DNA of 53,956 bases, from NCBI GenBank assembly GCA_049969715.1, contig JBMFOH010000008.1, forward strand, positions 1 to 53,956, given 5' to 3'. The notes below the pieces were generated by a model. The model made no database searches and was not told the origin of the DNA. It was given only the letters and a program-made list of their open reading frames with translations. This DNA comes from JBMFOH01 sp049969715 [NCBI: bacterium]. GTDB taxonomy: Bacteria > DUMJ01. The position numbers and the translations under genes are program-made. Numbering within the stretch: position 1 is the first letter of the stretch; each line of letters opens with the position of its first letter. Below, in pieces: positions 11,668 through 53,956 of this stretch.

Positions 11668-11700
11668 CTTAGAATCATTAGAATGTTAAGGGAGGAAAAG

Positions 11701-12267
11701 ATGGAAGTAGTAGTTAAATATTTTGAAGAGAAAGGAGAAATAAATACCGAGGCTACCCTTGTTGTGGCAAGGAGAAGATTAGAGGAACTTGGAATTAAAC
11801 AGGTTGTAGTAGCCTCTACTTACGGAGATACTGCCAGAAAAGCTATTGATGTTTTTGAGAACTTGGATATAAACCTAGTGATAGTGACAATCTCTTATGG
11901 ATTTACTAGAGAAGGATGGATTATGAAGGAAGAGGTGAGAAAGGAATTAGAATCAAGAGGAGTCAAGGTATTAACTTCAGTCCATGCATTAGGAGACGAT
12001 GTAAGCTCTAGTTTTTCTTCTAAATTCGGTGGCCACAATCCAAATGAGATTGTAGCAGAGGTCTTGAGGATGTTTTCTCAGGGGATGAAGGTAGCAGTAG
12101 AGACTACTATTATGGCAGTAGAGGCTGGACTTATAGATGTAAACCAAGAGACTATAGCGATTGGGGGAACTGATAGAGGAGCTGATACGGCAATCGTGGT
12201 AAAGCCTTCATATGCAAGGGATTTCTTATCATTTCAGATAAGGGAAGTCCTCGCAAAGCCAAGATAG
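11701..12267 (+). CDS. Pyruvate kinase C-terminal (alpha/beta) domain protein
   Basis: A 188-residue protein matching the stand-alone version of the pyruvate kinase C-terminal domain (PK_C, COG1751-like), with motifs VVASTYGDTARKA, the HALGDDVSS stretch and IAIGGTDRGADTA. It lacks the catalytic barrel of pyruvate kinase and so cannot be a pyruvate kinase. The family's function is not established; an allosteric or sugar-phosphate-binding role is only a guess. The frame is open up to 11644, but GGGAGG immediately before the ATG at 11701 and a promoter -10 inside the longer version favour 11701. It is 14 bases from the next gene. Confidence 0.82.
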   Translation: MEVVVKYFEEKGEINTEATLVVARRRLEELGIKQVVVASTYGDTARKAIDVFENLDINLVIVTISYGFTREGWIMKEEVRKELESRGVKVLTSVHALGDDVSSSFSSKFGGHNPNEIVAEVLRMFSQGMKVAVETTIMAVEAGLIDVNQETIAIGGTDRGADTAIVVKPSYARDFLSFQIREVLAKPR

Positions 12268-12281
12268 AGAGGAGGAATCGG

Positions 12282-38428: not shown

Positions 38429-38616
38429 TCTTACTTACTCGGCTAAGACCCATTTGCTATCTTGAGACCTATGTAATTGTTGCAAAACTGGTTGATGGAA
38501 TTTTAAGAACCTCCCCCTATGCTAAAACCTACGCTTATTCAGGGGAATGTGGGCTATTATACTATACCTGCGAAAATATGGTGATAGGTAAGTTTCTATC
38601 TATAAAATGTTAGTAG

Positions 38617-38662
38617 CACAGGCGTCCTTGCCTGTGTAATAATTATTTTTAATAACACAGGC
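38617..38662. repeat. Nested inverted repeats (CACAGGC / GCCTGTG)
   Basis: CACAGGC at 38617-38623 pairs with GCCTGTG at 38630-38636 over a 6-nt loop. The same right arm, as GCCTGTGT (38630-38637), can instead pair with ACACAGGC at 38655-38662 over an AT-rich 17-nt loop. The two hairpins exclude each other. This resembles a short dispersed palindromic repeat, but only this copy was noticed in the window. Confidence 0.7.
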
Positions 38663-38792: not shown

Positions 38793-38821
38793 TTGACATT
38801 TTTTTCTTTAAATGATAACAT
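38793..38821 (+). promoter_or_regulatory. Strong promoter of the carbohydrate island
   Basis: Consensus TTGACA at 38793-38798, a 17-base spacer and TAACAT at 38816-38821, preceded by TGA (extended -10). Predicted start near 38828, giving a leader of about 50 A-rich bases before the regulator gene. Confidence 0.7.
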
Positions 38822-38878: not shown

Positions 38879-39646
38879 ATGCTAGCTGAAGAAAGAAGAA
38901 GTAAAATATTGGAACTGTTAGAGCAGGAAAAGGCAGTAGAAGTTCCTGCTCTGGTAAAGATATTTAATGTTACAGGAGCTACCATAAGGCGAGATCTTGA
39001 GGTATTGGAAAAAGAGGGGCTCTTGAGACGTACTCATGGAGGAGCTGTTCTTCCCCAGAGTATCTCGTATGAACCTCTCTACTCCTCTCAGAAAAGAAAA
39101 AATTTAAAAGAAAAGATAGCTATTGGTAAAAGGGCGGCAGAACTGATTAACGATGGAGATACTATTTTTATCGAATCGGGAACTACCAATTTCCAGATCG
39201 CTAAAAATATAAAAGGTCGCCATAATCTTACTGTTGTTACCAATTCCATAGATATAGCCAGTGAGTTACTCAATGCTAAAGGGGTTCATGTGATTATTAC
39301 AGGGGGAGACCTTAGGAAAGAAACTGTTGCTCTGGTAGGACCTTTAACAGAAAGGGTCCTTAGTGAGTTGAAGGTAGATAAAGCTTTTCTTGGTATAAGC
39401 GCTATCATCCCAGGTAAGGGAATGAGTACAGCTAGTATTGTAGAAGCTCAGATAAAGCGACTAATAATTCAGATGGGTAGAGAAATTATAGGATTAGCTG
39501 ACCATAGTAAATTTGGAAAAGAAGCCTTTGCCTTTGTTGCACATACAAAAGTATTAAATAAGCTTATAACTGATAGTGGAATACCCCAAGAATATATAGA
39601 GGCATTAAAAGAAGAAGGGGTAGAAGTAATAGTATGTCAGATATAG
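38879..39646 (+). CDS. DeoR/GlpR family transcriptional regulator
   Basis: Sugar-responsive repressor of 255 residues. The N-terminal winged helix-turn-helix (about 5-57, including VTGATIRRDLEVLEKEGLL and RRTHGGAV) is the DeoR signature, and the C-terminal DeoRC domain (from about 75) has the isomerase-like fold that senses phosphorylated sugars: IFIESGTTNFQIA, VVTNSIDIA and GLADHSKFG. AAGGA lies 10 bases before the ATG. As first gene of the carbohydrate island it probably regulates that operon through a sugar phosphate made by the pathway. The ligand is unknown. Confidence 0.93.
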   Translation: MLAEERRSKILELLEQEKAVEVPALVKIFNVTGATIRRDLEVLEKEGLLRRTHGGAVLPQSISYEPLYSSQKRKNLKEKIAIGKRAAELINDGDTIFIESGTTNFQIAKNIKGRHNLTVVTNSIDIASELLNAKGVHVIITGGDLRKETVALVGPLTERVLSELKVDKAFLGISAIIPGKGMSTASIVEAQIKRLIIQMGREIIGLADHSKFGKEAFAFVAHTKVLNKLITDSGIPQEYIEALKEEGVEVIVCQI

Positions 39647-39662
39647 AAAGGAAGGATGGAAG

Positions 39663-41003
39663 ATGGAAGTAAAATTAGTAGAAACAGTTCCTAATATTAA
39701 AGTGAAACCACCAGGGCCAAGATCTTTAGAGCTTTGGGAGAGAGCAAATCGGTATATGAAAGGATTCTCTTCACAGGCAAGACTTTTTCCAGTAGCTTTC
39801 GAATCTGGTAATGGTTATACATTAACAGATGTAGATGGGAATACATATATTGATTTTAGCTCAGGGATATATGTGACAAATGCTGGGCATTGCCATCCAA
39901 AGGTGGTAGAAGCTCTTCAGAAACAGGTAGCTAATCTTATGAATGCCCATGATTATGTGTCAGAAGTGAAAGTAAAGCTTTTAGAAAAGCTTGCCTCTAT
40001 AACCCCAGGAAATCTCAATGGTTTTCAATTTTATTCTTCAGGAACAGAGGCAATAGAAGCTGGAATGAGAGTAATTCGTGCTCAGACAAATAGGTTTGAG
40101 TTTATTTCCTTCTTTAACGATTTCCATGGTAAGACGATGGGTGCAGTAAGTTTGGCAGATATGAATATAACTACTGGACCTAGAGCGGTAGGATTCCATA
40201 GGGTTCCTTACCCATATTGTTACAGATGCAGTTTTAAGATGCATTATCCAGAATGTAACTTATACTGTGTGGACTACATAAAAGAGGTAATACAACAGGA
40301 GACTATTGGACAGGTTGCTGGTATCGTTATAGAACCTATCCAAGGATGGGCAGGTTCTATCGTTCCACCTGATGATTACCTACCAAGACTTAGGGCATTG
40401 TGTGATGAGTTAGGTATTTTATTGTTAGTTGATGAGATTCTTACTAGTTTTGCTCGCACAGGGAAGATGTTCTGTGTGGAGCATTATAATGTAATTCCAG
40501 ATGTAATGACATTGGGTAAGGGCTTTGGTAATGGATTTCCAGTTACAGCTATAGCAATAAAAGAGGAGTATCTAGACAAATTAGAGAAGATAAGTGCATC
40601 TACTAGCTATGGAGGAAATCCAATGGCTTGTGCATCTGCTTTGGCTTCTATAGAGGTGATAGAAGAGGAGAATCTTATAGAAAAATCAGCCAAGTTAGGA
40701 GAATTTATTCTCAGAAGATTATATAAGATGAAAGAATCGCATCCCATAATAGGGGATGTAAGAGGGAAGGGATGCCTTTTAGGGATAGAACTAGTAAAGG
40801 ATAGAGAAACTAAAGAGCCATTCATCGAAGCGGGCCAAAAGGTCTATCAGAAGGCATTTGAAAAAGGAGTAGCATGGATACCTGCAAGACACATATTAAG
40901 ACTCTCTCCTCCACTTATTATGCCAGAGGAGGTAGCTAGTAAGGCTCTTGATCTTATAGAAGAAGCAATTTATGAGGTAGAAAAGGAGTACGGATATCAA
41001 TGA
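39663..41003 (+). CDS. Class III pyridoxal-phosphate aminotransferase
   Basis: Fold type I PLP enzyme of 446 residues, in the acetylornithine/4-aminobutyrate aminotransferase superfamily. The PLP lysine is Lys286 in TLGKGFGNG; LLLVDEILTSFARTGK holds the cofactor-binding Asp, and FYSSGTEAIEAGMR binds the phosphate. An inserted Cys-x2-Cys-x8-Cys-x3-Cys cluster (Cys186, 189, 198, 202) could bind a metal. The amino acceptor is unknown; in this sugar locus a keto sugar or cyclitol is conceivable, as is a plain 4-aminobutyrate enzyme. It overlaps the next gene by ATGA. Confidence 0.88.
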   Translation: MEVKLVETVPNIKVKPPGPRSLELWERANRYMKGFSSQARLFPVAFESGNGYTLTDVDGNTYIDFSSGIYVTNAGHCHPKVVEALQKQVANLMNAHDYVSEVKVKLLEKLASITPGNLNGFQFYSSGTEAIEAGMRVIRAQTNRFEFISFFNDFHGKTMGAVSLADMNITTGPRAVGFHRVPYPYCYRCSFKMHYPECNLYCVDYIKEVIQQETIGQVAGIVIEPIQGWAGSIVPPDDYLPRLRALCDELGILLLVDEILTSFARTGKMFCVEHYNVIPDVMTLGKGFGNGFPVTAIAIKEEYLDKLEKISASTSYGGNPMACASALASIEVIEEENLIEKSAKLGEFILRRLYKMKESHPIIGDVRGKGCLLGIELVKDRETKEPFIEAGQKVYQKAFEKGVAWIPARHILRLSPPLIMPEEVASKALDLIEEAIYEVEKEYGYQ

Positions 41004-42103
41004 AGGAATTAGGGATAGGTTTAGTAGGCTATGGATTTATAGGTAAGATTCATACTCTAGCATATAGAGTCTTAAATCTCTATTATGACCCTATGCCAGT
41101 AAAGATAAGACTTGTAGGGGTTTGTTCTGGTCATAGAGAAACAGCTGAAAAAGGAGTAGAACAGGGAGGGTATCTCTTTGCTACTACTGATTATCATAAG
41201 CTCTTAGAACGTGAGGATATCCATATTATCGATTGTTGCACTCCAAATTATCTCCATAAGGATATACTAATTGACGCTATGAGAACTGGTAAGTTTGTCT
41301 ACTGTGAGAAGCCTTTGGCTATGAATGTAGAAGAGGCAAAAGAGATTGTAAAAGTAGCAAAAGAGACAAAGATCATAAACCAAATGGCATTCCAGTATAG
41401 ATTTGTTCCTGCTGTTATGAGAGCAAAACAGCTTATAGAGGAAGGATTTCTTGGCAGAGTCTTTCACTTTAGGGCTTCATATCTTCATTCTGGTTATACT
41501 GATCCAAATAGACCTATCACCTGGAGATTGGATAAGGAAAAGGGTGGAGGAGGGGCCCTCTATGATCTGGGTTCCCATATTATAGACCTGATACATTACC
41601 TCTTAGGAGAATACGAAGATATTCATGGGTTTAAGGAAACATTTATAAAGGAAAGACCTCTATTAGAAAATCCGAGAGAGAAAAGAGAAGTAAAAGTAGA
41701 TGATTATATCATTCTTCAGGTAAGAATGACTAATGGTGCACTAGGAACATTAGAGGCGTCTAGAGTAGCCACAGGGACAAATGATGACTTAAGTTTTGAG
41801 ATCTATGGAGAGAAGGGTTCTATGAGGTTTCACCTTATGGAACCAAACTGGCTATATATCTATGATGCGACAGAGCCAGGAGAGCCCATTGGAGGTAGAA
41901 GAGGTTTTAAAGCAGTGGAATGTGTAAATAGATATCCAGCACCTTCTAGCCTACCAGGACCAAAGTTTTCTATAGGCTGGGAGAGGTTTCATATAGCAAG
42001 TCAATTTAATTTTATCTCTTGCATAGTTCAAGATAGAGAAGCTTCGCCTTCGTTTGAGGATGGGCTTTACGTTCAGGAGGTGATGGAAAGGGCTTATAAA
42101 TGA
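41000..42103 (+). CDS. Gfo/Idh/MocA family oxidoreductase (carbohydrate island)
   Basis: NAD(P)-dependent sugar or cyclitol dehydrogenase family protein, 367 residues. Rossmann motif LVGYGFIGKIH near the N-terminus, the EKP motif in VYCEKPLAMN, and the C-terminal DLGSHIIDLIHYLLGE with the conserved aspartate and histidine. It overlaps the aminotransferase by 4 bases (translation coupling), which suggests that the two act on the same compound: oxidation of a hydroxyl to a ketone and its amination, or the reverse. It is clearly distinct from the other Gfo/Idh protein at 12282. Confidence 0.9.
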   Translation: MKELGIGLVGYGFIGKIHTLAYRVLNLYYDPMPVKIRLVGVCSGHRETAEKGVEQGGYLFATTDYHKLLEREDIHIIDCCTPNYLHKDILIDAMRTGKFVYCEKPLAMNVEEAKEIVKVAKETKIINQMAFQYRFVPAVMRAKQLIEEGFLGRVFHFRASYLHSGYTDPNRPITWRLDKEKGGGGALYDLGSHIIDLIHYLLGEYEDIHGFKETFIKERPLLENPREKREVKVDDYIILQVRMTNGALGTLEASRVATGTNDDLSFEIYGEKGSMRFHLMEPNWLYIYDATEPGEPIGGRRGFKAVECVNRYPAPSSLPGPKFSIGWERFHIASQFNFISCIVQDREASPSFEDGLYVQEVMERAYK

Positions 42104-42200
42104 GAGGATTTATTAAGTAAATTAGAAGGGGGGAAGAAGAGGTAAGGGGTAATAAGTGTGTATAAATAGCGAGTAAAAATTTAAAAGGAGTGTGAGAGAA

Positions 42201-42229
42201 ATGAGAAAATAGTAAGTATATTTACTATT
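42201..42229 (+). other. Frame-disrupted start of the sugar-binding protein gene
   Basis: An ATG at 42201, behind AAAAGGAG, reads only MRK before TAG at 42210. If the A4 run at 42206-42209 had five A residues, the frame would read MRKIVSIFTILLFLVSLG, a normal signal peptide continuous with the downstream protein. So one A appears to be missing here, either as a sequencing or assembly error or as a real mutation. Confidence 0.8.
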
Positions 42230-43465
42230 TTGCTGTTCCTAGTCTCACTAGGAGATAATTTAGCTTTAGCCGAAAAGGTAACTATAACTTATTGGTGGTC
42301 ATGGAGTGGACCTATGGTTGATGCAATGCAGAAGATGGTAGATAAGTTTAATAAGACTCATCCTGATATCGAAGTAAAAATGACCTTCGTAGAGACTGGG
42401 GCATGGGAAACATATGAGAAACTTCAGACCGCTATTGCTGCCGGTTCCCCTCCAGATGCGGCACACTTTGAAAGGTCATTCGTTGATCAGTGGGCAGCTA
42501 AAGGATTGTTTCTTCCTCTTGATGAGTATCTTACCACCGAAGAAAGAACCGGAAAGGACTTTTTACCGTTTACTTGGGATGAAGTAGTTTATAAAGGGAA
42601 GGTATATGCTATTCCATTAGATACCGACATAAGAGGTTTACTTTGGAATAGAGACCTCTTTGAGGCTGCAGGTCTTCCAGACCGTGCTCCAAAGACTTTA
42701 GCAGAACTAGATAAATTTGCTGAGAAACTTACAAAATTTGACGAAAAAGGAAAGGTCCAAACTATAGGTTTTGTCCCTTGGTGGGGCAACTGGTTCTTCC
42801 CTGCTTGGAGCTGGACATTTGGAGGAAATATAGCCGATAGAAAGACTCTCAAAATAACGGCTAATGACCCAAAGAATATTCAGGCTTTAGAGTGGGTAAC
42901 TTCTTATGCTAAGAAATATGGCGTACAAGCAATAACTAGTTTTGGTGCCGGATTTACTGGAGGAGTTAATAATCCTTTCTTTATGGGTAAGGAAGGAATG
43001 GAGGCTAACGGGGTATGGATGGTAGGACAAATTAAACGATATGCTCCCAAACTCAACTATGATGTTGCTCCTGTTCCTCATCCACCTGGAGGAGCTAACG
43101 GAACATGGTGTGGAGGCTTCTGTAATGTAATTCCTAAGGGTTCTAAACATCCAAAAGAGGCAGCTGAATTTATAAAATGGCTAGGACAAGAAGAGGCCCA
43201 GTTAGATGTATATAGACTCCTTGAACATATTCCTACTAATAAGAAAGCCTTAGATAAAGTTAGACTGATGGTGGATCCAAAAGAGAGGAAGTTCTATGCT
43301 CAATTTCTAGTATCCCATGGCAGACCTCCTTTATGGGTTAGGATATTCAATGAATGTCTTACAGTAGTAGATGAGGCTATCTATGGGAAGAAAACTCCTA
43401 AGCAAGCATTGGATGATATGCAGACAAGATTAGAACAAGCTTTCAAAGAATTTTTTGGTAAATAG
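42230..43465 (+). CDS. Sugar ABC transporter substrate-binding protein (family 1), start frameshifted
   Basis: Extracytoplasmic sugar-binding protein, intact from a TTG at 42230 (411 residues). The mature part begins near AEKVTITYWWSWSG and shows the family 1 features TPPDAAHFE-like loop (GSPPDAAHFE), AIPLDTDIRGLLWNRDLFE and PKGSKHPKEAAEFIKW. As written the protein starts with only half a signal peptide and no positively charged N-region, so it would not be exported well. The intended start is very probably the ATG at 42201, one base out of frame. Two sugar permeases follow; the ATPase is not in the window, so a shared MsmK/MalK-like ATPase elsewhere is expected. Confidence 0.88.
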   Translation: MLFLVSLGDNLALAEKVTITYWWSWSGPMVDAMQKMVDKFNKTHPDIEVKMTFVETGAWETYEKLQTAIAAGSPPDAAHFERSFVDQWAAKGLFLPLDEYLTTEERTGKDFLPFTWDEVVYKGKVYAIPLDTDIRGLLWNRDLFEAAGLPDRAPKTLAELDKFAEKLTKFDEKGKVQTIGFVPWWGNWFFPAWSWTFGGNIADRKTLKITANDPKNIQALEWVTSYAKKYGVQAITSFGAGFTGGVNNPFFMGKEGMEANGVWMVGQIKRYAPKLNYDVAPVPHPPGGANGTWCGGFCNVIPKGSKHPKEAAEFIKWLGQEEAQLDVYRLLEHIPTNKKALDKVRLMVDPKERKFYAQFLVSHGRPPLWVRIFNECLTVVDEAIYGKKTPKQALDDMQTRLEQAFKEFFGK

Positions 43466-43474
43466 ACCTTTGGT

Positions 43475-43507
43475 AGGGAATTGTCCTAGAAAGTAGGGCA
43501 ATTCCCT
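43475..43507 (+). other. Hairpin between sugar-binding protein and permease genes
   Basis: AGGGAATTGTCCTA (43475-43488) pairs with TAGGGCAATTCCCT (43494-43507): 14 pairs including one T-G wobble, with the 5-nt loop GAAAG. No T-run follows. It probably stabilises the upstream mRNA segment or attenuates read-through so that more binding protein than permease is made. Confidence 0.75.
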
Positions 43508-43528
43508 CTAATATAATGGAGGAGGAAG

Positions 43529-44431
43529 ATGAGAATAAAGAAATATAGCAAATTAGAATTAGTTAATCTGAGGAATGGAGTACTATTTGCTCTTCCATTT
43601 TTTATAGGTTTTACATGCTTTACTATGTATCCTGTAATTAGCTCCTTATACTATAGTTTTTGCAAATATACTATAGTTTCTACTCCTCATTGGATTGGAC
43701 TCAAAAATTACATAAAACTATTTACCGAAGATGAATTGTTTGGAGTTTCTCTTTATAATTCTTTATACTATGCTATTTTCACTATTCCTTTGACTATTGC
43801 TGCCGCTATAATTTCTGCCTTATTGCTAAATATACCTATAAAGGGGCAACCAATATTTAGAACTATTTTCTACTTGCCATCTATTACCCCGGTAGTTGCT
43901 TCTTCTATTTTATGGGTATGGATACTTAACCCTCAGTATGGGATCTTAAACGCATTTTTAGAAAAGTTGGGAATTAATGGTCCGGGGTGGTTAGCTGACC
44001 CTAAATGGTCTAAGCCAGCATTAATACTTATGAGTTTATGGGGTATTGGGGGAGGGATAATTATATTCTTAGCTGCCTTACAAGATGTTCCTCAAGAACT
44101 TTATGAGTCAGCTGAGCTTGATGGAGCGAATTGGTGGAATAAGTTATGGGCTATTACTATTCCTTCTATAAGCCCTGCTATCCTTTTTACCTTGATTATG
44201 GGGATGATTGGTACCTTACAATTTTTTGCCCCAATTTATGTAATGACAAATGGAGGTCCTGTTAATTCTACTACTATGTATGCATTCTATCTTTATAGAA
44301 ATGCATTTGTATATCTTGATATGGGATATGCTTCAAGTATGGCTTGGATACTGTTTGTCATAGTCTTATTAGGAACAATTCTTATGTTTAAGAGCTCTTC
44401 CAAATGGGTATATTATAGAGGTGAACGTTAA
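43529..44431 (+). CDS. Sugar ABC transporter permease (MalF/UgpA type)
   Basis: Membrane permease of 300 residues with six predicted membrane segments. The EAA loop is VPQELYESAELDGANWWNKL, matching the carbohydrate uptake (CUT1) subfamily. GGAGGAAG precedes the ATG. It is separated from the binding-protein gene by the hairpin at 43475 and followed after one base (or overlapped) by the second permease. Confidence 0.93.
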   Translation: MRIKKYSKLELVNLRNGVLFALPFFIGFTCFTMYPVISSLYYSFCKYTIVSTPHWIGLKNYIKLFTEDELFGVSLYNSLYYAIFTIPLTIAAAIISALLLNIPIKGQPIFRTIFYLPSITPVVASSILWVWILNPQYGILNAFLEKLGINGPGWLADPKWSKPALILMSLWGIGGGIIIFLAALQDVPQELYESAELDGANWWNKLWAITIPSISPAILFTLIMGMIGTLQFFAPIYVMTNGGPVNSTTMYAFYLYRNAFVYLDMGYASSMAWILFVIVLLGTILMFKSSSKWVYYRGER

Positions 44432-44432
44432 T

Positions 44433-45269
44433 ATGAGAAAGTCTTTTCAAATTAAATTAAGGAATATTTTCTCATACATAATTTTAATTTCACTGAGTAT
44501 AATTTTCATATTTCCGCTGTACTGGCTTGTCTCCTCAGCACTAAAACCGGATGAACAACTATTTGTATTTCCTCCAATATTAATACCTCACCCTGTGAAA
44601 TGGGAAAATTATATAAAGGCAGTAAACTATTTCCCATTCTTCAGATACCTTGTTAATACTCTCATTATATGCGGGACAAATGTCTTCGGAGTTATTATTT
44701 CTTGTTCTCTTGTAGCTTATAGTTTTTCTCGTATTAAATGGCCTGGGCGTGATTTTTCCTTCTTTCTTATGCTTTCAACCATAATGCTTCCTTACCAGGT
44801 TACTATGATTCCTCTTTTTATAATATTTCAAAGGATAGGATGGACAAATACTTTTAAGCCGCTCATAATTGGAAGCTTTTTTGCCCCAGCATACTATACT
44901 TTCTTACTGAGGCAGTTCTTTCTTACAATACCCTTTGAACTTTCGGAGGCTGCTAAAGTAGATGGGGGAAGTGAACTCTTTATATATAGAAGTATAATTT
45001 TACCCCTATCGAAACCAGCTCTGGCAACCGTAGGACTGTTTACATTTATAGGAAACTGGAATGACTTCTTAGGACCACTAATATACCTTCATGATGAGAG
45101 TAAATATACACTAGCTATTGGATTACAAAGTTTTCTGAGTGAACATGGAGCGGAGTGGGCACTTTTAATGGCAGCTTCAAGTCTAACTGTTTTTCCAATT
45201 ATAGTTCTATTCTTCCTTACTCAAAGAACTTTTATCCAGGGAATAACGCTTACAGGAATAAAAGGATAG
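44433..45269 (+). CDS. Sugar ABC transporter permease (MalG/UgpE type)
   Basis: Second CUT1 permease, 278 residues from the ATG at 44433. Six membrane segments are predicted; the EAA loop is IPFELSEAAKVDGGSELFIY, and the C-terminal FIQGITLTGIKG is the usual ending. A GTG at 44421 would add four residues and overlap the first permease, but GAGGTG is better placed for the ATG at 44433. The GH38 gene starts 14 bases after the stop. Confidence 0.93.
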   Translation: MRKSFQIKLRNIFSYIILISLSIIFIFPLYWLVSSALKPDEQLFVFPPILIPHPVKWENYIKAVNYFPFFRYLVNTLIICGTNVFGVIISCSLVAYSFSRIKWPGRDFSFFLMLSTIMLPYQVTMIPLFIIFQRIGWTNTFKPLIIGSFFAPAYYTFLLRQFFLTIPFELSEAAKVDGGSELFIYRSIILPLSKPALATVGLFTFIGNWNDFLGPLIYLHDESKYTLAIGLQSFLSEHGAEWALLMAASSLTVFPIIVLFFLTQRTFIQGITLTGIKG

Positions 45270-45283
45270 ATTGGAGGAGAGTT

Positions 45284-47848
45284 ATGAATTTGAACTATCA
45301 GGTGTTTGTAGTGCCAGGTTCACACTTTGACCTTGGATGGTGTGCAACAATAGGAGAATGTTTATCTTGGGGTGATGAGATAATAAAGGATGCTATAGAT
45401 AATATCTTAAATAAATTCCCTCAGTATAAATTTACTATAGAGTATACACTGTTTCTTAAGCACTTTCTAGAGACGTATCCAGAGTATAAAGAAATAGTAA
45501 AAAGACTTATCTCAGAGAAAAAGATTCAAGTTTGTAGTACTATGGTTGGGGCTATGGAACAGATACTAGATGGAGAAATTCTCATCAGGGAGATAATTAA
45601 TGCAAAAAGGTGGATAAAGGAAGAACTAGGGATAGATGTCAAGACCGTTCAACATTCAGATCTACCAGGACATACTATTCAATTACCTCAGATATTACAG
45701 AAATTAGGGATAGAGAATATCTCATATTCTAGATTTCATCCTCCAATCCCTTTACACTGGTGGGAAGCTCCAGACGGCTCAAAAGTATTGGCTTGTAACC
45801 ATATCCATGGATATGGATGGGGATTTATTCTCTTAGATGAGAGGGAGGGAAAAGAAAGGTTACTCAAAGAGATAGAAGAGTTAACTTCAATTTGGCCTTC
45901 TAAAAATATATTAATGGTACAAGAAAGCGATTTACTTCCTCCAGAGCCAGAAATAGTAGAAAGAGTATCTAAACTTAATAAAGAATTGCAGGATATAGAA
46001 TTGAAAATATCTATCTTGGACGAATTTTTTGATGCAGTCAGAGAAGAAGAATGTAACTTACCCAGTTATAGAGGAGAAGCTCCTTATGGATTTTATAGCC
46101 TTCCTGCAACTCAGCCTGTTACCTATAGAGAAGCTCGAATTGCGGAAAATAGATTAACATCAGTTGAGAAATTTGCATCTTTAAGAGAGATTTTAAACTT
46201 TGGTGCCTATCCTAGGGAAAAGATAGAGCAGGCATGGGGAAATCTCTTCTATTGTCATGACCACAATGTAAGTGGACGAAGAGGAGAATTAAATAATGAG
46301 GTAAGAACTCAAAGAGCTATCTGGGCAAGAATAGAGGGAGAAGAGATATTAAGAGAGGTAATGTTATCTATCGGAGTAAATATTGACTACTCTCAAAAAG
46401 GTGACCCCATAGTGGTATTTAATCCACTCTCCTGGGAAAGAAGTGATATTGTCTGTAGTTATGTAAAACTCCCTGGGGAAGATATAAAAGGAGTGATGAT
46501 AAAAGATAACCAAGGAAATGAAATACCTGTTCAGGTTTTAAGTATAGAACAAGCTAGGGAGGGAAGGGTTGATTTCTCTAATACTAATCTTACTAGAGTA
46601 GACTTCTTATTTCTAGCTAAAGATATACCCCCTATAGGCTATAAAGTCTTCTATGTGTATCCTATTAAGGAAGAATATAAGAGTAGTATAAAAATTGAAA
46701 CTATATCGGTTGAAAGTCCCTTCTATAGGATTGAAGTTACAGAGAAAAATAAAGTCAAACTTTGGTGGAAAACCAGAGAAAGAGAATTAAGCCATGAATT
46801 GGGGGATGTTATAGTAGTAGAAGATCTGAGATGGGATCTTGAAGATGCCCTAGAAGAACAAGCCCAAAAGGAGGCAGTTCCAAGAGTAATTAAGGAGGAA
46901 TTAGAGTATGAACCAGAAGAATATTATAGAGATGGAAGAAGTAACTTCACCGGTATAAAATGGACTTTCTCTAGAGATGAGATAGAGATTATAGAAAGTG
47001 GATTACTTAGAACTATAGTAAGGATTAAAGGTAAGGTCTTGAATTCACTTGTAGAAGAAGATATTATTCTGTATCAACATATACCCAGAATTGATTTTAA
47101 AGTAACTATAGATTGGGAAGGTGAGAAGAATACACAAGTAAGGGTGAGATTCCCATTCGATATTCCTAATGGTAAAATCACCTATGAGACTCCCTTCTAT
47201 GGAGTTGAACTTGACAAAGATGAGATGCCCAATACCTATAGAGGTAGTGGAGGAAGGTTTGTCCAAAAGTGGATAGATATAAACAATGAAGATTTCGGAG
47301 TTACTTTTGGTACTCAGAATTGTACCCATCTTCTCAGTGATACTACTATAGAAGCGATTATTCTCAGATCTACTTATAGTTGCGGAGATCCATTTACTTG
47401 GAGTCTTAATAAGGGGCTTCATACATTCAGCTTTTCTCTAGTAGCTCATGACAGAGATTGGAGAGAGAGTCATAGCTGGAGAGTAGGATGGGAATTCAAC
47501 AACCCTCTTGAGATGTTTAACCCAAATGTTATTGAACCAATAAAATCTCTCAAATCTATACTACCAGAAGATTTTACTCTATGTGAGGTGGATAATCCCA
47601 GTATTGTAATTACCACTATTAAAAAATCTTACAAGAACAACTTTTGGCTCTTGAGATGTTTTGATGCAGAAGGTAGAGGAGGAGAGGTCAATATACTGTT
47701 TCCATTTAAACTAACTGAAGCATGGGATTCAAATATGTTGGAGGAACCTATGGAGAGACTCCAAGCAGAGGATAAAAGCATTCATTTAGTATTTAAACCT
47801 AGTGAAATCAAGAATATTTTGTTAAAGTTCGAAAAGGAGGAGATGTAA
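45284..47848 (+). CDS. Glycoside hydrolase family 38 (alpha-mannosidase family), first copy
   Basis: Cytoplasmic zinc glycosidase of 854 residues. Zinc and active-site residues of GH38 can be read: His14 and Asp16 in SHFDLGW, the nucleophile Asp126 in HSDLPGHT, and His325/Asp326 in YCHDHNVSG. The middle helical domain and the C-terminal beta-sandwich domain, ending EIKNILLKF, follow. The frame is open to 45155 inside the permease gene, but GGAGGAGA and the ATG at 45284 mark the real start. No signal peptide, so it acts on imported material. GH38 includes alpha-mannosidases and mannosylglycerate hydrolases; the exact linkage is not predictable. Confidence 0.9.
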   Translation: MNLNYQVFVVPGSHFDLGWCATIGECLSWGDEIIKDAIDNILNKFPQYKFTIEYTLFLKHFLETYPEYKEIVKRLISEKKIQVCSTMVGAMEQILDGEILIREIINAKRWIKEELGIDVKTVQHSDLPGHTIQLPQILQKLGIENISYSRFHPPIPLHWWEAPDGSKVLACNHIHGYGWGFILLDEREGKERLLKEIEELTSIWPSKNILMVQESDLLPPEPEIVERVSKLNKELQDIELKISILDEFFDAVREEECNLPSYRGEAPYGFYSLPATQPVTYREARIAENRLTSVEKFASLREILNFGAYPREKIEQAWGNLFYCHDHNVSGRRGELNNEVRTQRAIWARIEGEEILREVMLSIGVNIDYSQKGDPIVVFNPLSWERSDIVCSYVKLPGEDIKGVMIKDNQGNEIPVQVLSIEQAREGRVDFSNTNLTRVDFLFLAKDIPPIGYKVFYVYPIKEEYKSSIKIETISVESPFYRIEVTEKNKVKLWWKTRERELSHELGDVIVVEDLRWDLEDALEEQAQKEAVPRVIKEELEYEPEEYYRDGRSNFTGIKWTFSRDEIEIIESGLLRTIVRIKGKVLNSLVEEDIILYQHIPRIDFKVTIDWEGEKNTQVRVRFPFDIPNGKITYETPFYGVELDKDEMPNTYRGSGGRFVQKWIDINNEDFGVTFGTQNCTHLLSDTTIEAIILRSTYSCGDPFTWSLNKGLHTFSFSLVAHDRDWRESHSWRVGWEFNNPLEMFNPNVIEPIKSLKSILPEDFTLCEVDNPSIVITTIKKSYKNNFWLLRCFDAEGRGGEVNILFPFKLTEAWDSNMLEEPMERLQAEDKSIHLVFKPSEIKNILLKFEKEEM

Positions 47849-47849
47849 A

Positions 47850-48674
47850 ATGAGTTTAGGAAAAGAGATTAGGATGGCAAGATTATTCAATGCTAAAAGC
47901 GGAAGGATGGTGTTGGTAACTGCTGACCATGGGATATGCATAAATCCTATGAAGGAGATTGAGAATCCTAAAGAAGTAGTAAGAAAGATAGCCCAAGGAG
48001 GAGCGGACGCAATTTTATTAACCCCAGGGATTGCTCGTATTGTAAAAGAAGAACTGGTTGGTAAGATTTCTCTTATGTTACGTATAGATGGAACTGCGAC
48101 TTCTATTGGACCAGATCTAACAAATGATAGGCTTATCTATTCTGTAGAAGGGGCATTAGCTATGGGTGCAGATGCAGTAGCTACATTTGGAGTTATTGGG
48201 GTACCTAGAGAAGCAGAGCTTTCTCAAAAAATTGGGCAGGTAAACGATGCCTGTGAGAGATGGGGTATGCCGATGATGGTAGAAATGATACCAGAAGAGA
48301 TGTTAGCACATCAATTCAAAGATAGGGCAGAACGTAAATGGCCTAAAGATCCAGAGATAGTTAAATATAGCGCAAGAGTAGCTGCTGAATTGGGAGCAGA
48401 TATAGTCAAAGGCTATTATACTGGAGATTCAGAAAGCTTTAAAGGGGTAATTAAGTATTGTCCTGTTCCCTATGTTGTTCTTGGGGGACCCTCCTCAGAA
48501 GACCCTGAGATATTCTTGAGATTTATCAGAGAAGCTATGGACTGTGGAGCAAAAGGAGTATCGGTGGGAAGAAATGTATGGGCATATAGAGATCCGGTGG
48601 CAATAACTAGGGCTATCTGTCGAATTGTCCATGATGATGCCTCTGTTGAAGAAGCTTTGAAGGAGATCAAGTAG
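47850..48674 (+). CDS. Class I aldolase, FbaB/DeoC/LsrF-like
   Basis: Schiff-base aldolase with a TIM barrel, 274 residues. The lysine expected to form the Schiff base is Lys187 in ADIVKGYYTGD; other family segments are LVTADHGICINP, GADAILLTPG, MLRIDGTATSIG and PYVVLGGPSSEDPE. Relatives include archaeal-type fructose-bisphosphate aldolase, LsrF and ADH synthase. Between sugar isomerase and GH38 genes it most likely splits a ketose phosphate. AAAGGAGGAG precedes the ATG and it starts one base after the GH38 stop. Confidence 0.88.
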   Translation: MSLGKEIRMARLFNAKSGRMVLVTADHGICINPMKEIENPKEVVRKIAQGGADAILLTPGIARIVKEELVGKISLMLRIDGTATSIGPDLTNDRLIYSVEGALAMGADAVATFGVIGVPREAELSQKIGQVNDACERWGMPMMVEMIPEEMLAHQFKDRAERKWPKDPEIVKYSARVAAELGADIVKGYYTGDSESFKGVIKYCPVPYVVLGGPSSEDPEIFLRFIREAMDCGAKGVSVGRNVWAYRDPVAITRAICRIVHDDASVEEALKEIK

Positions 48675-48683
48675 AGGAAGTCT

Positions 48684-50027
48684 ATGTCTTCTAAATTGGG
48701 TTTCTTAAACATAGGTCATAGAGATTATCCTAACGATATAGCCAGAATGATAGCTGATAAGGCGGTAGAAAATCTAAGAAAGGTAGGAATAGAAGTTAGC
48801 TATAAAGATATGCCTATTGTAGACCCTATTACAGCAAGGAACTTAGCCTTAGAATTAGTAAAGGAAGACTTAGATGGGGTAATAATCTTTTTAGGTACAT
48901 GGATCGAATGTCCTGTGGCTATAAGTGCTATAAGGGAGATCGAACACCTTCCATTTGCTCTATGGGGATATCCTCAATTTATAAGGGGGGAGGACACTCC
49001 CTTTGTTAAAAAAGGAGAAAAAGATTCTACTGGTTCTTACGTAGCATTGACTGTATTAAAAGGAACCCTTGATAGAATGGGATATAGATACTTCTGGATA
49101 GTAGGATTCCCTGATGATAAGAGAGCATTGGAGAGAGCTACTATTTTTTCTAGAATAGCATATACAATGAAGACATTAAAGAGAGTAAGGATAGGACTTA
49201 TAGGTTATGCGTCTATGGGGATGTATCCAGGGACATTTGATCATGCCTTGTTAAGAAGGTTTATAGGTCCAGAGGTTATCCAGTTTGATACCTATACTTT
49301 GATAAATAGGATAGAAAGGATAAAGGAAACAAAACAGACCATTGGAGTATTAAAGGAAAAGGCACATATACATCAGGATGCTACAGAAGAAAAGCTAGAA
49401 AAAGTAGCCAGGATGTATAAGGCCCTGAAAGAACTATCTAATGAGTATTACTTAGATGCAGTGAACGTAAAATGCCAGTATGAATTATCCCAAGAGTATG
49501 GAGCTGTAGCTTGTATCCCCTGTTCTCTTCTAGCAGATTCAGGGATAGTCACTACCTGTGAGGGAGATGTAATGACTACTGTAAGTGCAGTAATAATGCA
49601 TCTAATTACTAATCAAGTCATATATTATGGTGATATACTAGATTGGGAGGACGGAAGGATTTTATTATCTTCCTGTGGGTTTATGCCTTTCTCGCTCTCT
49701 AAGTATAAACCTACCATAAGAGAGCTTGGATATCCTGGATTTAAAGGGTTGATAAATTCTGGGGTACTTAAAGAAGGAGAAATTACTATGGTAAGACTTT
49801 ATGAAGGGATAGGAAGTTATAAGATGAGTATAGTAAAGGGAGAAGGCATAGATACTAAACCTCGTATGGGTAGGTTCCCTGCATTAAATATAAAAGTAAA
49901 CTTTACTGAAGAAGAATTTCTAGAATATATCCCGAGCCAACATTATTGTATAGCGTACGGAGATTGGATAAGAGATCTAGAAGAACTGTGTAAATTTATG
50001 GGGATAGGAAAGGAAGTGTTAAGATGA
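48684..50027 (+). CDS. L-fucose/L-arabinose isomerase family protein
   Basis: A 447-residue protein of the COG2407-type sugar isomerase family, which interconverts aldoses and ketoses. Visible family features are the N-terminal DGVIIFLGTWIECP-like alpha/beta domain, the IGLIGYASMGMYPG segment, and the C-terminal metal-site region ACIPCSLLADSG followed by TTCEGDVMTT with a conserved glutamate and aspartate. It is shorter than classical FucI (about 590) and AraA (about 500). Nine bases separate it from the aldolase and it overlaps the second GH38 by ATGA. The precise sugar is unknown. Confidence 0.85.
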   Translation: MSSKLGFLNIGHRDYPNDIARMIADKAVENLRKVGIEVSYKDMPIVDPITARNLALELVKEDLDGVIIFLGTWIECPVAISAIREIEHLPFALWGYPQFIRGEDTPFVKKGEKDSTGSYVALTVLKGTLDRMGYRYFWIVGFPDDKRALERATIFSRIAYTMKTLKRVRIGLIGYASMGMYPGTFDHALLRRFIGPEVIQFDTYTLINRIERIKETKQTIGVLKEKAHIHQDATEEKLEKVARMYKALKELSNEYYLDAVNVKCQYELSQEYGAVACIPCSLLADSGIVTTCEGDVMTTVSAVIMHLITNQVIYYGDILDWEDGRILLSSCGFMPFSLSKYKPTIRELGYPGFKGLINSGVLKEGEITMVRLYEGIGSYKMSIVKGEGIDTKPRMGRFPALNIKVNFTEEEFLEYIPSQHYCIAYGDWIRDLEELCKFMGIGKEVLR

Positions 50028-52573
50028 ACAGTATGGAAGAAATCAGAAAAGCATTAAAAGATACTAAGATTTTCATTATTCCATACGCCCATTGTGATTG
50101 GGCGTGGACTCATACAAGAAAATGGCATAGAGAAAGATATGCCAGCATAATAAATTCTATTCTAGAGATTCTTGAAAATTATCCCCAATTTAGATGGTAT
50201 ATGGATAATTATAAGATGGAATTAACCCCATTCTTAGAAAAATATCCAGGAAAGATTGAAAGACTTAAGGAATTTGTTAAAGAAGGTAAGATTGGTGTCT
50301 GTGGAGGATACGCTAACGTAAGACCTAATATGGTAGGAGAGGAGACATTCATAAGAAACCTTGTTATTGGGAGGAAATATTTTAAGAATCTTTTCCCTGA
50401 TGCTGATCTTTCTGTTCATGCAGATGCGGTAGATGTAGCTCTCGGACATCCTCAAATGCCTCAGATTTTAAGAAAGGCTGGATATAAATATTTTAGATGC
50501 TGGAGGCCACATGAGGTAATGACAGTGAAAGGAATCCCTAACGAATTCATATGGAAAGGGCTAGATGGAAGTGAGATCCTAGTGAGTAGAGGTAGCTATG
50601 CTGGCTTAGGACAGAAAGAATTGGCAGAACTAGATTACAAAAAGGATTGGGAAAAGACTCTTTATACTCTGTATGAGTTAGAATTAGAGTATATACTTTC
50701 TACCTCTAAAACAAAACTTCTTTGGGTAAGTCATGGAATGGACGATATGCTTCCATTGAGAACATATCCTGGACAAGATGAGCTTCCAATAGACCTTATT
50801 GGTATAGTAGAAGAATGGAATAGGCAAGAGAAAACACCGATGATTTTTGCTACTCCTTTAGAGTTCTATAAAGCGTTAGAAAATATTAGAGAAGCATTGC
50901 CTACGATAGAAGGAACAATAGATCCATGTGATGTCTGTTATAATGCAGCATGGAATGGAGAGAAAGGTTTGTGGGCACTGAGATATAAAGGAGATTGTGC
51001 TCTTGTAGAAGCAGAGAAGTGGAACACTATTTCTAGTATGTTCACTAGAGATAACACTAATTACCAAAGCTTGTGGGAAGACCTATTAACCTCCTCTGCT
51101 CATGCTACTCAGTGGCTTTTCGAAGAAGACTTCCAAGAAATCTACTCGTTAGCTTCTAGAGTTGTATCTGAAGGAGTTTATTCAAGAAACAAGGCGTTAA
51201 GAGATATAATGTTCCATATAGATATTCCAGAGAATTGTTCCGCGGTAATATTCAATTCGTTAAGTTTTAAGTATGACCCTTTAGTAAAAATTACTCTCCC
51301 AGTATCAAATATAGATAAGGTCCAACTAAAAGATGGCAATAACAATATTATTCCTTTTCAGGTTCTTAAGAATTATATCTGGCCAGAAAAAGTATGGGAA
51401 TGGGATGTATTAGCTCGGATAGACCTTCCTTCTCTAGGATATAACATAATAAAGATAGAAGAGTCTGAAAAGAGTCACATATTAAAAGGGTCTCCAAGGC
51501 TAGATATAAAACTAGAAGCAGGTAGAGTTGTTGAAATCATAGATAATAAGACAAAGAATACATACAAAGCTTCTGGAAATACTCCTTGGAATCATCTTCG
51601 CTATTATGGGGTTGATACAGAAGGTGGAGTACTACATGTAGGACCCATTACGGGTTGTTGTGATGTTCAGTGGCATAAGTATGAAGTTATAGAGGAAGGA
51701 CCTCTAAGATGGGCTTATAGATTATGGGGTAACATAGGGGGTCATAATGTAGTCCAAGATATAATGCTATTTGATAAGGAGGATAGGATAGAATTTTTGA
51801 CCGAGGTTGATTGGAAGGGTGGAAATGGATTTTTATTAGCTATGATCCCTCTCGATAGTCAGGGAGAATTATTAGGGGATATCCCATTTGGTATAGAGAG
51901 AAAGCCTATTGAAAGTGAGCCTTATGGTAAGTTACCTGGTAAAGGTTGGGATAATATACATAGGCAGAGAGAAGGGATGTTCTTTGCAAAGAGTTTTGTT
52001 ATCCATAAGGGGAAGAATTATTCCACTGTTTTCTGGAATATTAATGGTGATAGATACTTTATATATGACAAAAAATTAAATACCTTAGGACATATTTTAA
52101 TAAATAGTATTGTTAGACCACAAGGAACTTGGGAGGAGCATGTAAATTCCTTCATAGAAGGGATAGGGAGACATCTGTTTTCTTACTCTATAAAAGTAAG
52201 TAGGGACGAAATAGACGAATCTGAAACGGTAAAAACATCTCTTAAACTAAAGAATAATCCTGTAGTACTTGATCCTCAAAGGGGATTAGACAAAGCACTT
52301 CCGCCCTATTATAGTTTTCTTTCTCTTATACCAGAAGATATTGTGGTTTCAGCAATTTATAGAGAGGGAGAAGATATAATTATAAGGTTATTTGAGCCTG
52401 TGGGGAAGAAACGAGAAGTAAGATTACATACATACTTTAATTTTAAAGAAGTATTCCCAGAAGACTTTATAGGTAATCACCTAGAAGAACCTTCTATCAG
52501 ATTGAAAGATAAGGAGATCTCTTTCGAGATAAAACCATACGAAATAGTTACATTAAGAGGGAGATTGAGATGA
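50024..52573 (+). CDS. Glycoside hydrolase family 38 (alpha-mannosidase family), second copy
   Basis: Zinc glycosidase of 849 residues without a signal peptide. His23 and Asp25 in AHCDWAW, the nucleophile candidate Asp137 in DVALGHPQMP and His360 in SSAHATQW correspond to the GH38 zinc and catalytic positions. The C-terminal part ends in EIVTLRGRLR after a beta-rich domain. Apart from these motifs it shares little obvious sequence with the first GH38 gene, so it is not a recent duplicate and probably has a different substrate. It overlaps both the isomerase and the acetyltransferase genes by 4 bases. Confidence 0.87.
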   Translation: MNSMEEIRKALKDTKIFIIPYAHCDWAWTHTRKWHRERYASIINSILEILENYPQFRWYMDNYKMELTPFLEKYPGKIERLKEFVKEGKIGVCGGYANVRPNMVGEETFIRNLVIGRKYFKNLFPDADLSVHADAVDVALGHPQMPQILRKAGYKYFRCWRPHEVMTVKGIPNEFIWKGLDGSEILVSRGSYAGLGQKELAELDYKKDWEKTLYTLYELELEYILSTSKTKLLWVSHGMDDMLPLRTYPGQDELPIDLIGIVEEWNRQEKTPMIFATPLEFYKALENIREALPTIEGTIDPCDVCYNAAWNGEKGLWALRYKGDCALVEAEKWNTISSMFTRDNTNYQSLWEDLLTSSAHATQWLFEEDFQEIYSLASRVVSEGVYSRNKALRDIMFHIDIPENCSAVIFNSLSFKYDPLVKITLPVSNIDKVQLKDGNNNIIPFQVLKNYIWPEKVWEWDVLARIDLPSLGYNIIKIEESEKSHILKGSPRLDIKLEAGRVVEIIDNKTKNTYKASGNTPWNHLRYYGVDTEGGVLHVGPITGCCDVQWHKYEVIEEGPLRWAYRLWGNIGGHNVVQDIMLFDKEDRIEFLTEVDWKGGNGFLLAMIPLDSQGELLGDIPFGIERKPIESEPYGKLPGKGWDNIHRQREGMFFAKSFVIHKGKNYSTVFWNINGDRYFIYDKKLNTLGHILINSIVRPQGTWEEHVNSFIEGIGRHLFSYSIKVSRDEIDESETVKTSLKLKNNPVVLDPQRGLDKALPPYYSFLSLIPEDIVVSAIYREGEDIIIRLFEPVGKKREVRLHTYFNFKEVFPEDFIGNHLEEPSIRLKDKEISFEIKPYEIVTLRGRLR

Positions 52574-53073
52574 ATGAAGTGATAGAAAGAGAAACTCCTA
52601 TAGGGAAAGTTAAGATTAGGCCACTATCTAAAGATGATTTTGAAATTCTCTATGAACTCTTTACAGCTATTACTGATACTGATAGATATTTTTTCCATCC
52701 TCATCCTTTCGACAAAGAAACAGCTAAGAAGCTTATTGAAGAGGTAGGGAATTCTAATGTTCTTAGAGTACTTGTAATTCTTCCCTCTGGAGAAAGAGAA
52801 TTAGCCATTGGATATGGATTCCTTTGGGATTTGAATACTGAAGTACCGAGTCTTGGAATATACATTCGTAACGGCTATCAGAATAAGAAACTAGGGCATA
52901 TTTTGATGGAATACCTTATAGAAACTGCTAAAAAATTAAATAAAAAGGGGATAGCTTTAACAGTTTATGAGGATAATAAGAAAGCTTTTCATCTTTATCA
53001 AAAGATGGGTTTTAAAGTAAAGAGAGTTATATACTGTATGGAGCTTGGTCTATATGAAAATTCTAGCGATTGA
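52570..53073 (+). CDS. GNAT family N-acetyltransferase
   Basis: A 167-residue acetyl-CoA-dependent acyltransferase. The acetyl-CoA-binding motif A is seen in LGIYIRNGYQNKKLGHILM and motif B in ALTVYEDNKKAFHLYQKMGF. The acceptor is unknown; given the neighbouring aminotransferase, an amino sugar is possible, but the family also acetylates proteins and antibiotics. It overlaps the GH38 gene by 4 bases and the kinase by 20. Confidence 0.85.
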   Translation: MNEVIERETPIGKVKIRPLSKDDFEILYELFTAITDTDRYFFHPHPFDKETAKKLIEEVGNSNVLRVLVILPSGERELAIGYGFLWDLNTEVPSLGIYIRNGYQNKKLGHILMEYLIETAKKLNKKGIALTVYEDNKKAFHLYQKMGFKVKRVIYCMELGLYENSSD

Positions 53074-53956
53074 TTTAGGTACTACAGGATGTAAAGTAGG
53101 TATTTTTGACCCAGAAAGGCTTACACTTATAGAAGAAGCTTATAGAGAATATCCACTTATAGTGATCTCTTCTAAAGAGATAGAACAGGATGCAACTCTT
53201 TGGTGGGATCTTGTGAAAACGTTAATAAAAGAGGTAATTAAAAATGCGAGGATAGAACCAAAAGAGATAAGAGCACTAGGTATATCCTCTCAGGGGATAT
53301 CATTTGTCCCTGTAGATAGAGGCTTTAATCCCATATACAATGCTATAAGTTGGCTTGATACTAGGGCAATAATAGAGACCAAAACAATAGAAGAAAAGTT
53401 CTCCTTTACCGAGATCTTTAAGAAAACTGGGAAAAGGTTAAATCCTGCTTATGTATTACCTAAGCTTATATGGCTTAAAAAGAATAGACCTGATATTTAT
53501 GATAAAGCTTATAAATTTCTAATGGGAGAAGATTTCATAATAGCGAAACTTACTGGAATTCCTGTGACTGATCACTCTATGGCATCTGGAACCCTCCTCT
53601 ATGATATCGAAAGACAGGATTGGTGTATGGAATTATTAGAGACCTTTGGAATCCCTATAGAGAAACTCCCTAGTCTTTCATGGGGAGGAGAAGTAATAGG
53701 ATATATTAGAAACGACATAACTCAAGAACTAAACTTAGAAAGCGATACACTAGTAGTCTTAGGAGGACAAGATCAAAAATGTGGGGTATTTGGAGCAGGA
53801 CTTATTAAAGAGGACTCTACTGTTTCGATCTCCTTTGGAACAGCTATAGCTGTAAGTAGAGTTATAGGCACCCCTATACTAGATCCTCTTATGAGGATTC
53901 CTTGCTTTTCCTATTTAATTCCCCATCAGTATATCCTAGAAGGAGTAATTGGTACT
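53054..53956 (+). CDS. FGGY family carbohydrate kinase (3' end outside window)
   Basis: ATP-dependent sugar kinase, 301 codons visible with an uninterrupted frame to the window end, out of about 500 expected. The N-terminal phosphate-binding loop IDLGTTGCKVGIFD, the substrate-site ISSQGI and WLDTRA, and GGQDQKCGVFGAG are typical of xylulokinase, fuculokinase and relatives; the substrate subfamily cannot be set from this. It starts within the acetyltransferase gene. With the isomerase and aldolase it completes an isomerase-kinase-aldolase set. Confidence 0.92.
   Translation, partial: MKILAIDLGTTGCKVGIFDPERLTLIEEAYREYPLIVISSKEIEQDATLWWDLVKTLIKEVIKNARIEPKEIRALGISSQGISFVPVDRGFNPIYNAISWLDTRAIIETKTIEEKFSFTEIFKKTGKRLNPAYVLPKLIWLKKNRPDIYDKAYKFLMGEDFIIAKLTGIPVTDHSMASGTLLYDIERQDWCMELLETFGIPIEKLPSLSWGGEVIGYIRNDITQELNLESDTLVVLGGQDQKCGVFGAGLIKEDSTVSISFGTAIAVSRVIGTPILDPLMRIPCFSYLIPHQYILEGVIGT

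Follow-up and report, generated by a model that had tools for sequence, protein, structure and literature searches.

In Escherichia coli, the L-fucose pathway runs from the isomerase FucI through the kinase FucK to the aldolase FucA. The same combination can be recognized in a gene island at positions 38879–53956 of contig JBMFOH010000008.1 (JBMFOH01 sp049969715; GTDB lineage Bacteria; DUMJ01), whose 53,956 nucleotides are called the window here. The island encodes an isomerase of the FucI fold with the same metal triad, an FGGY-family kinase and an aldolase. Unlike FucA, which is a class II enzyme, the island aldolase is of the class I DhnA type and did not qualify as class II FucA-type, and the island adds an aminotransferase, a Gfo/Idh oxidoreductase, glycoside hydrolases of family 38 (GH38) and a GNAT acetyltransferase.

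Sulfoglycolysis by SftI shares the isomerase superfamily with the island, but the window isomerase scored below the SftI cut-off and no other sulfoglycolysis gene was seen in the island. A 25% relative of the isomerase lies on a plasmid of Candidatus Chlorohelix (Chloroflexota; locus L014, 1-21194) together with genes for an ATP-binding cassette (ABC) sugar importer, a pyrophosphate-dependent phosphofructokinase-like protein and a sulfite reductase; this locus looks like a sulfoquinovose cluster. Both GH38 enzymes of the window match the model of the mannosylglycerate hydrolase MngB, also a GH38 enzyme, over the N-terminal half, but with scores of 137.7 and 87.3 compared to the NF007331 cut-off of 1138. 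The Thermotoga-type inositol route (IolG, IolN) resembles the wider module in combining a Gfo/Idh enzyme with a creatininase-family hydrolase, but the scores were below the cut-offs, and to our knowledge isomerase, FGGY kinase and DhnA aldolase are not part of that route. As far as family tests can tell, the set as a whole is placed by none of them and is not a fucose, sulfoglycolysis, mannosylglycerate or inositol route. No described pathway with this gene set was recognized in searches of an open paper library, which lacks many subscription papers.

Here, the island is tentatively read as the operon of an unnamed catabolic module for a nitrogen-bearing, mannose-like glycoside. That its genes form a recurring catabolic set is well supported, and by its conserved neighbourhood, within the limits given below, the grouping exceeds chance. 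The twelve open reading frames (ORFs) are all on the + strand, starting with the DeoR gene and ending with the FGGY kinase gene, and are separated by -20 to +126 bases. An earlier note on this DNA, made from the sequence alone, had given the gene content, order and single strand of the island, and every gene that it named was recovered in that order:

38879..39646, + strand, DeoR-family transcriptional regulator (Pfam DeoRC 1.6e-50, HTH_DeoR)
39663..41003, + strand, class III pyridoxal phosphate (PLP) aminotransferase, here called AT3 (Aminotran_3 4.8e-101; Schiff-base lysine K286)
41000..42103, + strand, Gfo/Idh/MocA oxidoreductase (GFO_IDH_MocA; nearest NCBIfam model levoglucosan dehydrogenase, 301 bits, cut-off 650)
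42230..43465, + strand, solute-binding protein of a sugar ABC importer (SBP_bac_1 1e-42)
43529..44431, + strand, permease 1 of the sugar ABC importer (BPD_transp_1 2.6e-17)
44421..45269, + strand, permease 2 of the sugar ABC importer (BPD_transp_1 1.1e-17)
45284..47848, + strand, GH38 enzyme no. 1, GH38a (Glyco_hydro_38N 7.6e-29)
47850..48674, + strand, class I (DhnA/MJ0400-type) aldolase (PRK07226 subfamily 264.6 bits, cut-off 241; DeoC/LacD-type by Pfam)
48684..50027, + strand, AraA/FucI-fold aldose-ketose isomerase (Fucose_iso_C 1.7e-8, weak)
50024..52573, + strand, GH38 enzyme no. 2, GH38b (Glyco_hydro_38N 2.1e-27)
52570..53073, + strand, GNAT N-acetyltransferase (Acetyltransf_1 9.8e-13)
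53054..53956, + strand, FGGY sugar kinase, N-terminal 301 residues (FGGY_N 4.3e-60; nearest NCBIfam model XylB, 207 bits, cut-off 380)

The kinase gene, which starts at 53054, is truncated by the window end and the operon may therefore run on. The kinase qualifies by its FGGY_N domain, its C-terminal part lying beyond the window.

The aminotransferase AT3 and its gene neighbourhood

AT3 could not be assigned to a named family: none of the best 25 of 69 NCBIfam models passed, the highest score being 414.7 with a cut-off of 552. In a phylogenetic tree, AT3 and 53 orthologues (54–68% identity) were separated from 15 paralogues by a branch with 100/100 support. K286 and D257 of AT3 align with K268 and D239 of the gamma-aminobutyrate (GABA) aminotransferase GabT, which are the PLP lysine and aspartate, in 54/54 sequences, and the GabT arginine R398 is kept as R413 in all 54. 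GabT residues R141, E211 and Q242 are replaced by K157, W229 and L260, again in 54/54, and at these positions AT3 does not match a GABA aminotransferase. At the same three positions the paralogues carry R (15/15), G (14) or A (1), and Q (15/15). The uniform active site of the 54 sequences suggests that one reaction is shared throughout the clusters.

The neighbourhood of AT3 was studied in 52 Armatimonadota loci, namely those of 51 genomes (291 searched) that AT3 matched at E 1e-125 or better, and one truncated locus. Six partner families were scored: FGGY kinase, isomerase (any subtype), creatininase, cupin, DhnA aldolase and M55 peptidase. ORFs were called with a simple script, and 18/52 loci have less than 3 kb of contig on one side. 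As a control, the loci of the 15 best-matching class III aminotransferase paralogues were used, all from isomerase-bearing genomes (36–42% identity in the search that gave them, 35–41% in the later comparison of loci). Within 6 kb of AT3, FGGY was found in 24 loci, creatininase in 17, isomerase and cupin in 15 each, DhnA in 12 and M55 in 4; a Gfo/Idh gene like that of the window was present in 11, DeoR in 10 and GH38 in 2. At least one partner family was found in 39/52 loci, two in 28/52 and three in 19/52, compared to 0/15 control loci. For FGGY, the 24/52 seen compare with ~0.8 expected from 355 FGGY_N genes in 253 Mb, a value that, like the Fisher and binomial values, takes no account of the shared ancestry of these related loci. 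When the rows with a partner in their fetched stretch are marked on the tree (54 AT3 and 15 control rows), the pattern requires 11 changes, and the gene order in the clusters varies widely. Gfo/Idh in general is no marker, since other Gfo/Idh enzymes lie beside 7 of the 15 paralogue loci. GH38 was tried as a core member of the AT3 clusters and rejected (2/52 AT3 loci compared to 1/15 paralogue loci).

AT3 and the isomerase also coincide at the level of genomes: of the 13 Armatimonadota genomes that have a window-type isomerase (E <1e-100), 10 have an AT3 match as well (E 1e-125 or better), compared to 41 of the 278 others. Strong AT3 matches were found in 9/386 genomes around G001, including two Aerophobota. 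DeoR adjoins both Aerophobota AT3 genes, and one of these loci (L082) has the order DeoR–AT3–Gfo/Idh–FGGY, with a Gfo/Idh protein 62% identical to that of the window. The other seven are placed outside Armatimonadota and Aerophobota by their absence from both phylum listings, and at least one partner family was found in 5/7. The exceptions are L155, with only Gfo/Idh and DeoR, and L156, a 3.5 kb contig in which AT3 itself was not listed. Among the neighbouring genes in the seven loci are URO-D-like ones, which lie near AT3 in L152, L153 and L154, as well as ceramidase-like, amidohydrolase, PfkB and GNAT genes. One family scan took in the 60 ORFs that had at least 220 amino acids, lay within 1.5 kb and met a codon filter; the families listed were 25 of 62.

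The earlier note had named co-occurrence of these families in other genomes as a check on the cluster, and the lack of a conserved neighbourhood outside this genome as an argument against it. The search was positive, with the counts given above, and related clusters were present in Armatimonadota, in Aerophobota and in genomes outside both. This co-occurrence moves the emphasis to nitrogen. The related clusters repeatedly contain GNAT genes and genes of amide-hydrolase types (creatininase, M55, amidohydrolase, ceramidase-like).

The GH38 and GNAT genes have counterparts in such clusters. GH38a is 41% identical over its full length to the GH38 of L065, and GH38b is 36% identical, also over the full length, to those of L116 and L131; of the ten GH38 matches that the fetched loci gave, those most similar to the one and the other window type sit in these related clusters. 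L065 (Aerophobota) has the order GNAT–creatininase–cupin–GH38–FGGY–Gfo/Idh with interspersed toxin–antitoxin-type genes, namely MazE-, PIN- and AbiEii-like genes at 1755-2460 and 6609-7496. In L116, one continuous frame without a stop or unknown base spans both a GNAT, 35% identical to that of the window, and a GH38, 36% identical to GH38b. This frame adjoins AT3, cupin and creatininase genes; it has internal start codons and may be two genes in one frame. In the window, the GH38b and GNAT genes overlap by four bases. L152 has a fusion of a GNAT with an Amidohydro_2 domain, and in L154 the two are encoded by neighbouring genes. The window GNAT is 44% identical to that of L065. By BLAST the GNATs form two groups, window/L065/L116 and L152/L154, and are not all of one subfamily.

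Isomerase, aldolase and GH38 enzymes

The fold of the isomerase was examined using a structure model built from three sequences (pLDDT 79). The best matches of the model were L-arabinose isomerases (AraA), with Z ~30 across about 434 residues, followed by D-arabinose/L-fucose isomerases (FucI) with Z 26–27; the rows after these had Z of at most 12.4. Identity to FucI in the structure alignments was 13–17%. In an alignment of 31 sequences, among them AraA and FucI of E. coli, residues E293/D317/H420 of the window isomerase correspond to the metal ligands E337/D361/H528 of FucI; E293 is present in 31/31 sequences, D317 in 21 and H420 in 30 (one gap). Predicted fold and metal ligands thus support membership of the AraA/FucI superfamily. 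The only NCBIfam match of the isomerase was the sulfoquinovose isomerase SftI (NF048012), with 115.8 bits and a cut-off of 700.

The window-type isomerase subfamily is rare in the genomes searched. Two loci came from a scan of GTDB contigs, and matches at E <1e-100 were found in 13/291 Armatimonadota genomes, at 3e-100 or better in 2/17 Aerophobota genomes and at E 1e-60 in 3/386 genomes around G001, all within the Aerophobota set. No relative was found on viral contigs in the viral-contig scan. Fifteen isomerase-centred loci (L001, L002, L050–L062), in which the isomerase is at least 33% identical to that of the window, were compared; weaker relatives such as that of L063 (28%) were excluded. 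A creatininase-family gene lies 3' of the isomerase in 13/15, the misses being L060, at a contig end, and L062, which is not contig-limited. An apparent isomerase–creatininase fusion in L061 was rejected, as the isomerase frame is lost after an unknown residue and represents an assembly break; the locus stays among the 13. FGGY and M55 genes are found further downstream in several loci, and M55 adjoins FGGY in L051, L053 and L061. The order of the window recurs in L059 (Armatimonadota), where AT3 and Gfo/Idh precede the isomerase and are followed, after a creatininase gene, by FGGY; identities to the window are 58% for AT3, 52% for Gfo/Idh, which directly follows AT3, and 39% for the isomerase.

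The aldolase, described as class I in the earlier note, was indeed assigned by NCBIfam to the DhnA/MJ0400 group, and its Schiff-base lysine K187 aligns with that of MJ0400 (2qjg) in a VK..YTGD segment. Judged by families and residues, a complete ketose-phosphate route consisting of isomerase, FGGY kinase and class I aldolase is supported.

Both GH38 enzymes scored above the Pfam cut-offs for Glyco_hydro_38N, 38C and 38C2. They had been called unlike each other, and their mutual identity is 23%. In an alignment of GH38a (numbered from codon 45281) with Ams1, the zinc and nucleophile residues H15, D17, D127 and H328 are kept, and the acid candidate D217 aligns with the Asp of a GDGGGGPT segment. 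In GH38b the N-terminal zinc pair H23 and D25 was aligned and H360 aligned only in a very weak 2-bit stretch. D137 comes from an ungapped reading of DVALGHPQMPQI, where HMMER put a gap, and a general-acid candidate lies near residue 240, outside the alignment. For both enzymes, alpha-mannoside-type activity is predicted from their GH38 membership.

Translation of GH38a most likely starts at ATG 45284, which is preceded by GGAGGAG, and not at GTG 45155, the mechanical ORF start. The frame of the solute-binding protein opens only at TTG 42230 and has a short leader; ATG 42201, preceded by AAAGGAG, is in a different frame, which stops after three codons. The signal-peptide sequence at 42201-42230 may contain a frameshift or have been misassembled. 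No ABC ATPase was found by Pfam among the twelve ORFs. The 5' neighbours of the operon are radical S-adenosylmethionine and short-chain dehydrogenase/reductase (SDR) genes, with a gap of 450 bases before DeoR. Between the SDR gene and the operon lies a 9-pair hairpin with an A/T-rich tail (38616-38637), and terminator-like sites number 12, only slightly more than the 9.8 of shuffles. A promoter-like TTGACA–17–TAACAT at 38793–38821 was dropped as evidence because the number of such sites, 52, is no higher than the 53.6 expected. A second Gfo/Idh gene (Pfam) follows a gene for a 207-amino-acid protein at 11644-13427, ~25 kb upstream of the island. The proB gene product of the window is 46–53% identical to long matches in 13/17 genomes of Aerophobota, the one phylum compared.

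Possible substrates of the island

The earlier note had proposed that an imported alpha-mannoside-like compound is cut and that the released sugar is isomerized, phosphorylated and split. Import, cleavage, isomerization, phosphorylation and aldol split fit the genes and residues; the aminotransferase, Gfo/Idh enzyme, amide hydrolases and GNATs are left unexplained by a plain alpha-mannoside. A glycoside with nitrogen off C2 is, in our judgement, the best reading and the simplest that uses every gene. It is based on the presence of an aminotransferase, of a Gfo/Idh enzyme able to reduce its keto product, of acyl-removing enzyme types in the relatives and of acetyltransferases linked to hydrolases. 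The ABC importer would take up a mannose-like glycoside, which the two GH38 enzymes, differing in specificity, would cleave. The sugar would carry nitrogen off C2, for example as an N-acylated 3-, 4- or 6-amino-deoxy-hexose, because AraA/FucI-type isomerases require a free C2 hydroxyl. In the relatives, creatininase/amidohydrolase-type enzymes may take off the acyl group. AT3 would then convert the sugar amine to a ketone, which Gfo/Idh would reduce to a hydroxyl, and the resulting plain sugar would go to the metal-dependent isomerase. The latter would turn the freed aldose into a ketose. After phosphorylation of this ketose by the FGGY kinase, the Schiff-base aldolase of DhnA type would release dihydroxyacetone phosphate (DHAP) and a short aldehyde. 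We infer which sugar is used, in what order the steps run, that DHAP is formed and that there is a nitrogen step.

Several observations weigh against a nitrogen-bearing glycoside. The 52 loci were collected with AT3 as the query, which makes AT3 constant among them by design, and 13/52 loci, including 8 with less than 3 kb of contig on one side, are without a partner. In the Aerophobota locus L083, DeoR lies by AT3 and none of the six partner families was found. Only one of the 15 isomerase-centred loci (L059) has AT3 beside the isomerase, which points to a looser link; in the other 14, the fetched stretch, short in several cases, has no AT3, although most of these genomes carry it on another contig or in another region (an orthologue with 58–67% identity is present in 13/16 searched genomes). 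Except for L059 (39%), the isomerases of AT3-centred clusters are 21–24% identical to that of the window or gave no BLAST match, and 2/3 of those tested were most like AraA; the sugar may therefore differ between clusters. Their DhnA proteins belong to another subfamily, with 27–31% identity to the window's where BLAST matches. Neither creatininase nor cupin was found in the window, which ends inside the kinase gene. Sugar aminotransferases known so far are mostly of the DegT family. The nearest solved relatives of AT3 are amino-acid enzymes (racemases, isoleucine 2-epimerase and GABA aminotransferase), which counts for a conjugate of sugar and amino acid.

A plain alpha-mannoside or deoxy-mannoside route is somewhat unlikely. 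Here the GH38 enzymes would free D-mannose or 6-deoxy-mannose, which would pass through the 2-ketose and its 1-phosphate to DHAP and glyceraldehyde or lactaldehyde, with AT3, Gfo/Idh and GNAT performing side tasks. GH38 membership and residues, together with the fold and triad of the isomerase, agree with such a route, as do the rarity of AT3 next to the window-type isomerase and a cupin partner in the relatives that resembles D-lyxose isomerase (PF07385), an enzyme with a mannose-configured substrate. However, AT3, Gfo/Idh, kinase, isomerase and aldolase types recur jointly and along with nitrogen-handling genes, and GH38 seldom lies beside AT3. Catabolism of a sugar–amino acid conjugate or glycopeptide was judged quite improbable: M55/creatininase peptidases and a peptide importer would handle the peptide, AT3 would racemize or transaminate the amino acid, and the sugar would be left to isomerase, kinase and aldolase. 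Besides the amino-acid relatives of AT3, the M55 genes near AT3 and next to FGGY and an SBP_bac_5 gene beside AT3 in L083 speak for this, but the importer of the window is of carbohydrate type, no peptidase is among the island genes, and the GNATs are tied to GH38 and amidohydrolase.

There is still less reason to expect an aminocyclitol or inositol-type substrate, for which Gfo/Idh would oxidize the cyclitol, AT3 would act on an inosamine and creatininase-family enzymes would hydrolyze a diketo ring as IolN does. The creatininase family does include IolN (92.6 bits for the L001 protein) and Gfo/Idh matches IolG (120 bits), but both scores are under the cut-offs of 245 and 355 bits, a cyclitol needs no aldose isomerase, and we know of no GH38 enzyme that releases cyclitols. 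A sulfosugar route like sulfoglycolysis was rejected as highly improbable; the SftI match of the isomerase, its sole one in NCBIfam, is far under the cut-off, and no GH31 sulfoquinovosidase, sulfolactaldehyde or sulfite gene is among the twelve ORFs.

With a nitrogen-bearing glycoside as the tentative substrate, a wider role is conceivable, if doubtful: many bacteria might share an undescribed pathway that removes the nitrogen of deoxy sugars aminated at C3, C4 or C6, as they occur in glycans or glycosylated natural products, and leads these sugars into glycolysis. It would run through deacylation, transamination by a new group of class III aminotransferases and reduction by Gfo/Idh to the isomerase, the FGGY kinase and the DhnA aldolase, with GNAT–GH38 fusions acting on the glycoside. 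The textbook logic of isomerase, kinase and aldolase recurs here with a uniform, unnamed aminotransferase group, Gfo/Idh enzymes, amide-hydrolase types and GNATs. If the nitrogen reading is true, only a few enzymes would be needed to test a class of carbon and nitrogen source directly, and a likely role would follow for dozens of genes without a specific family model.

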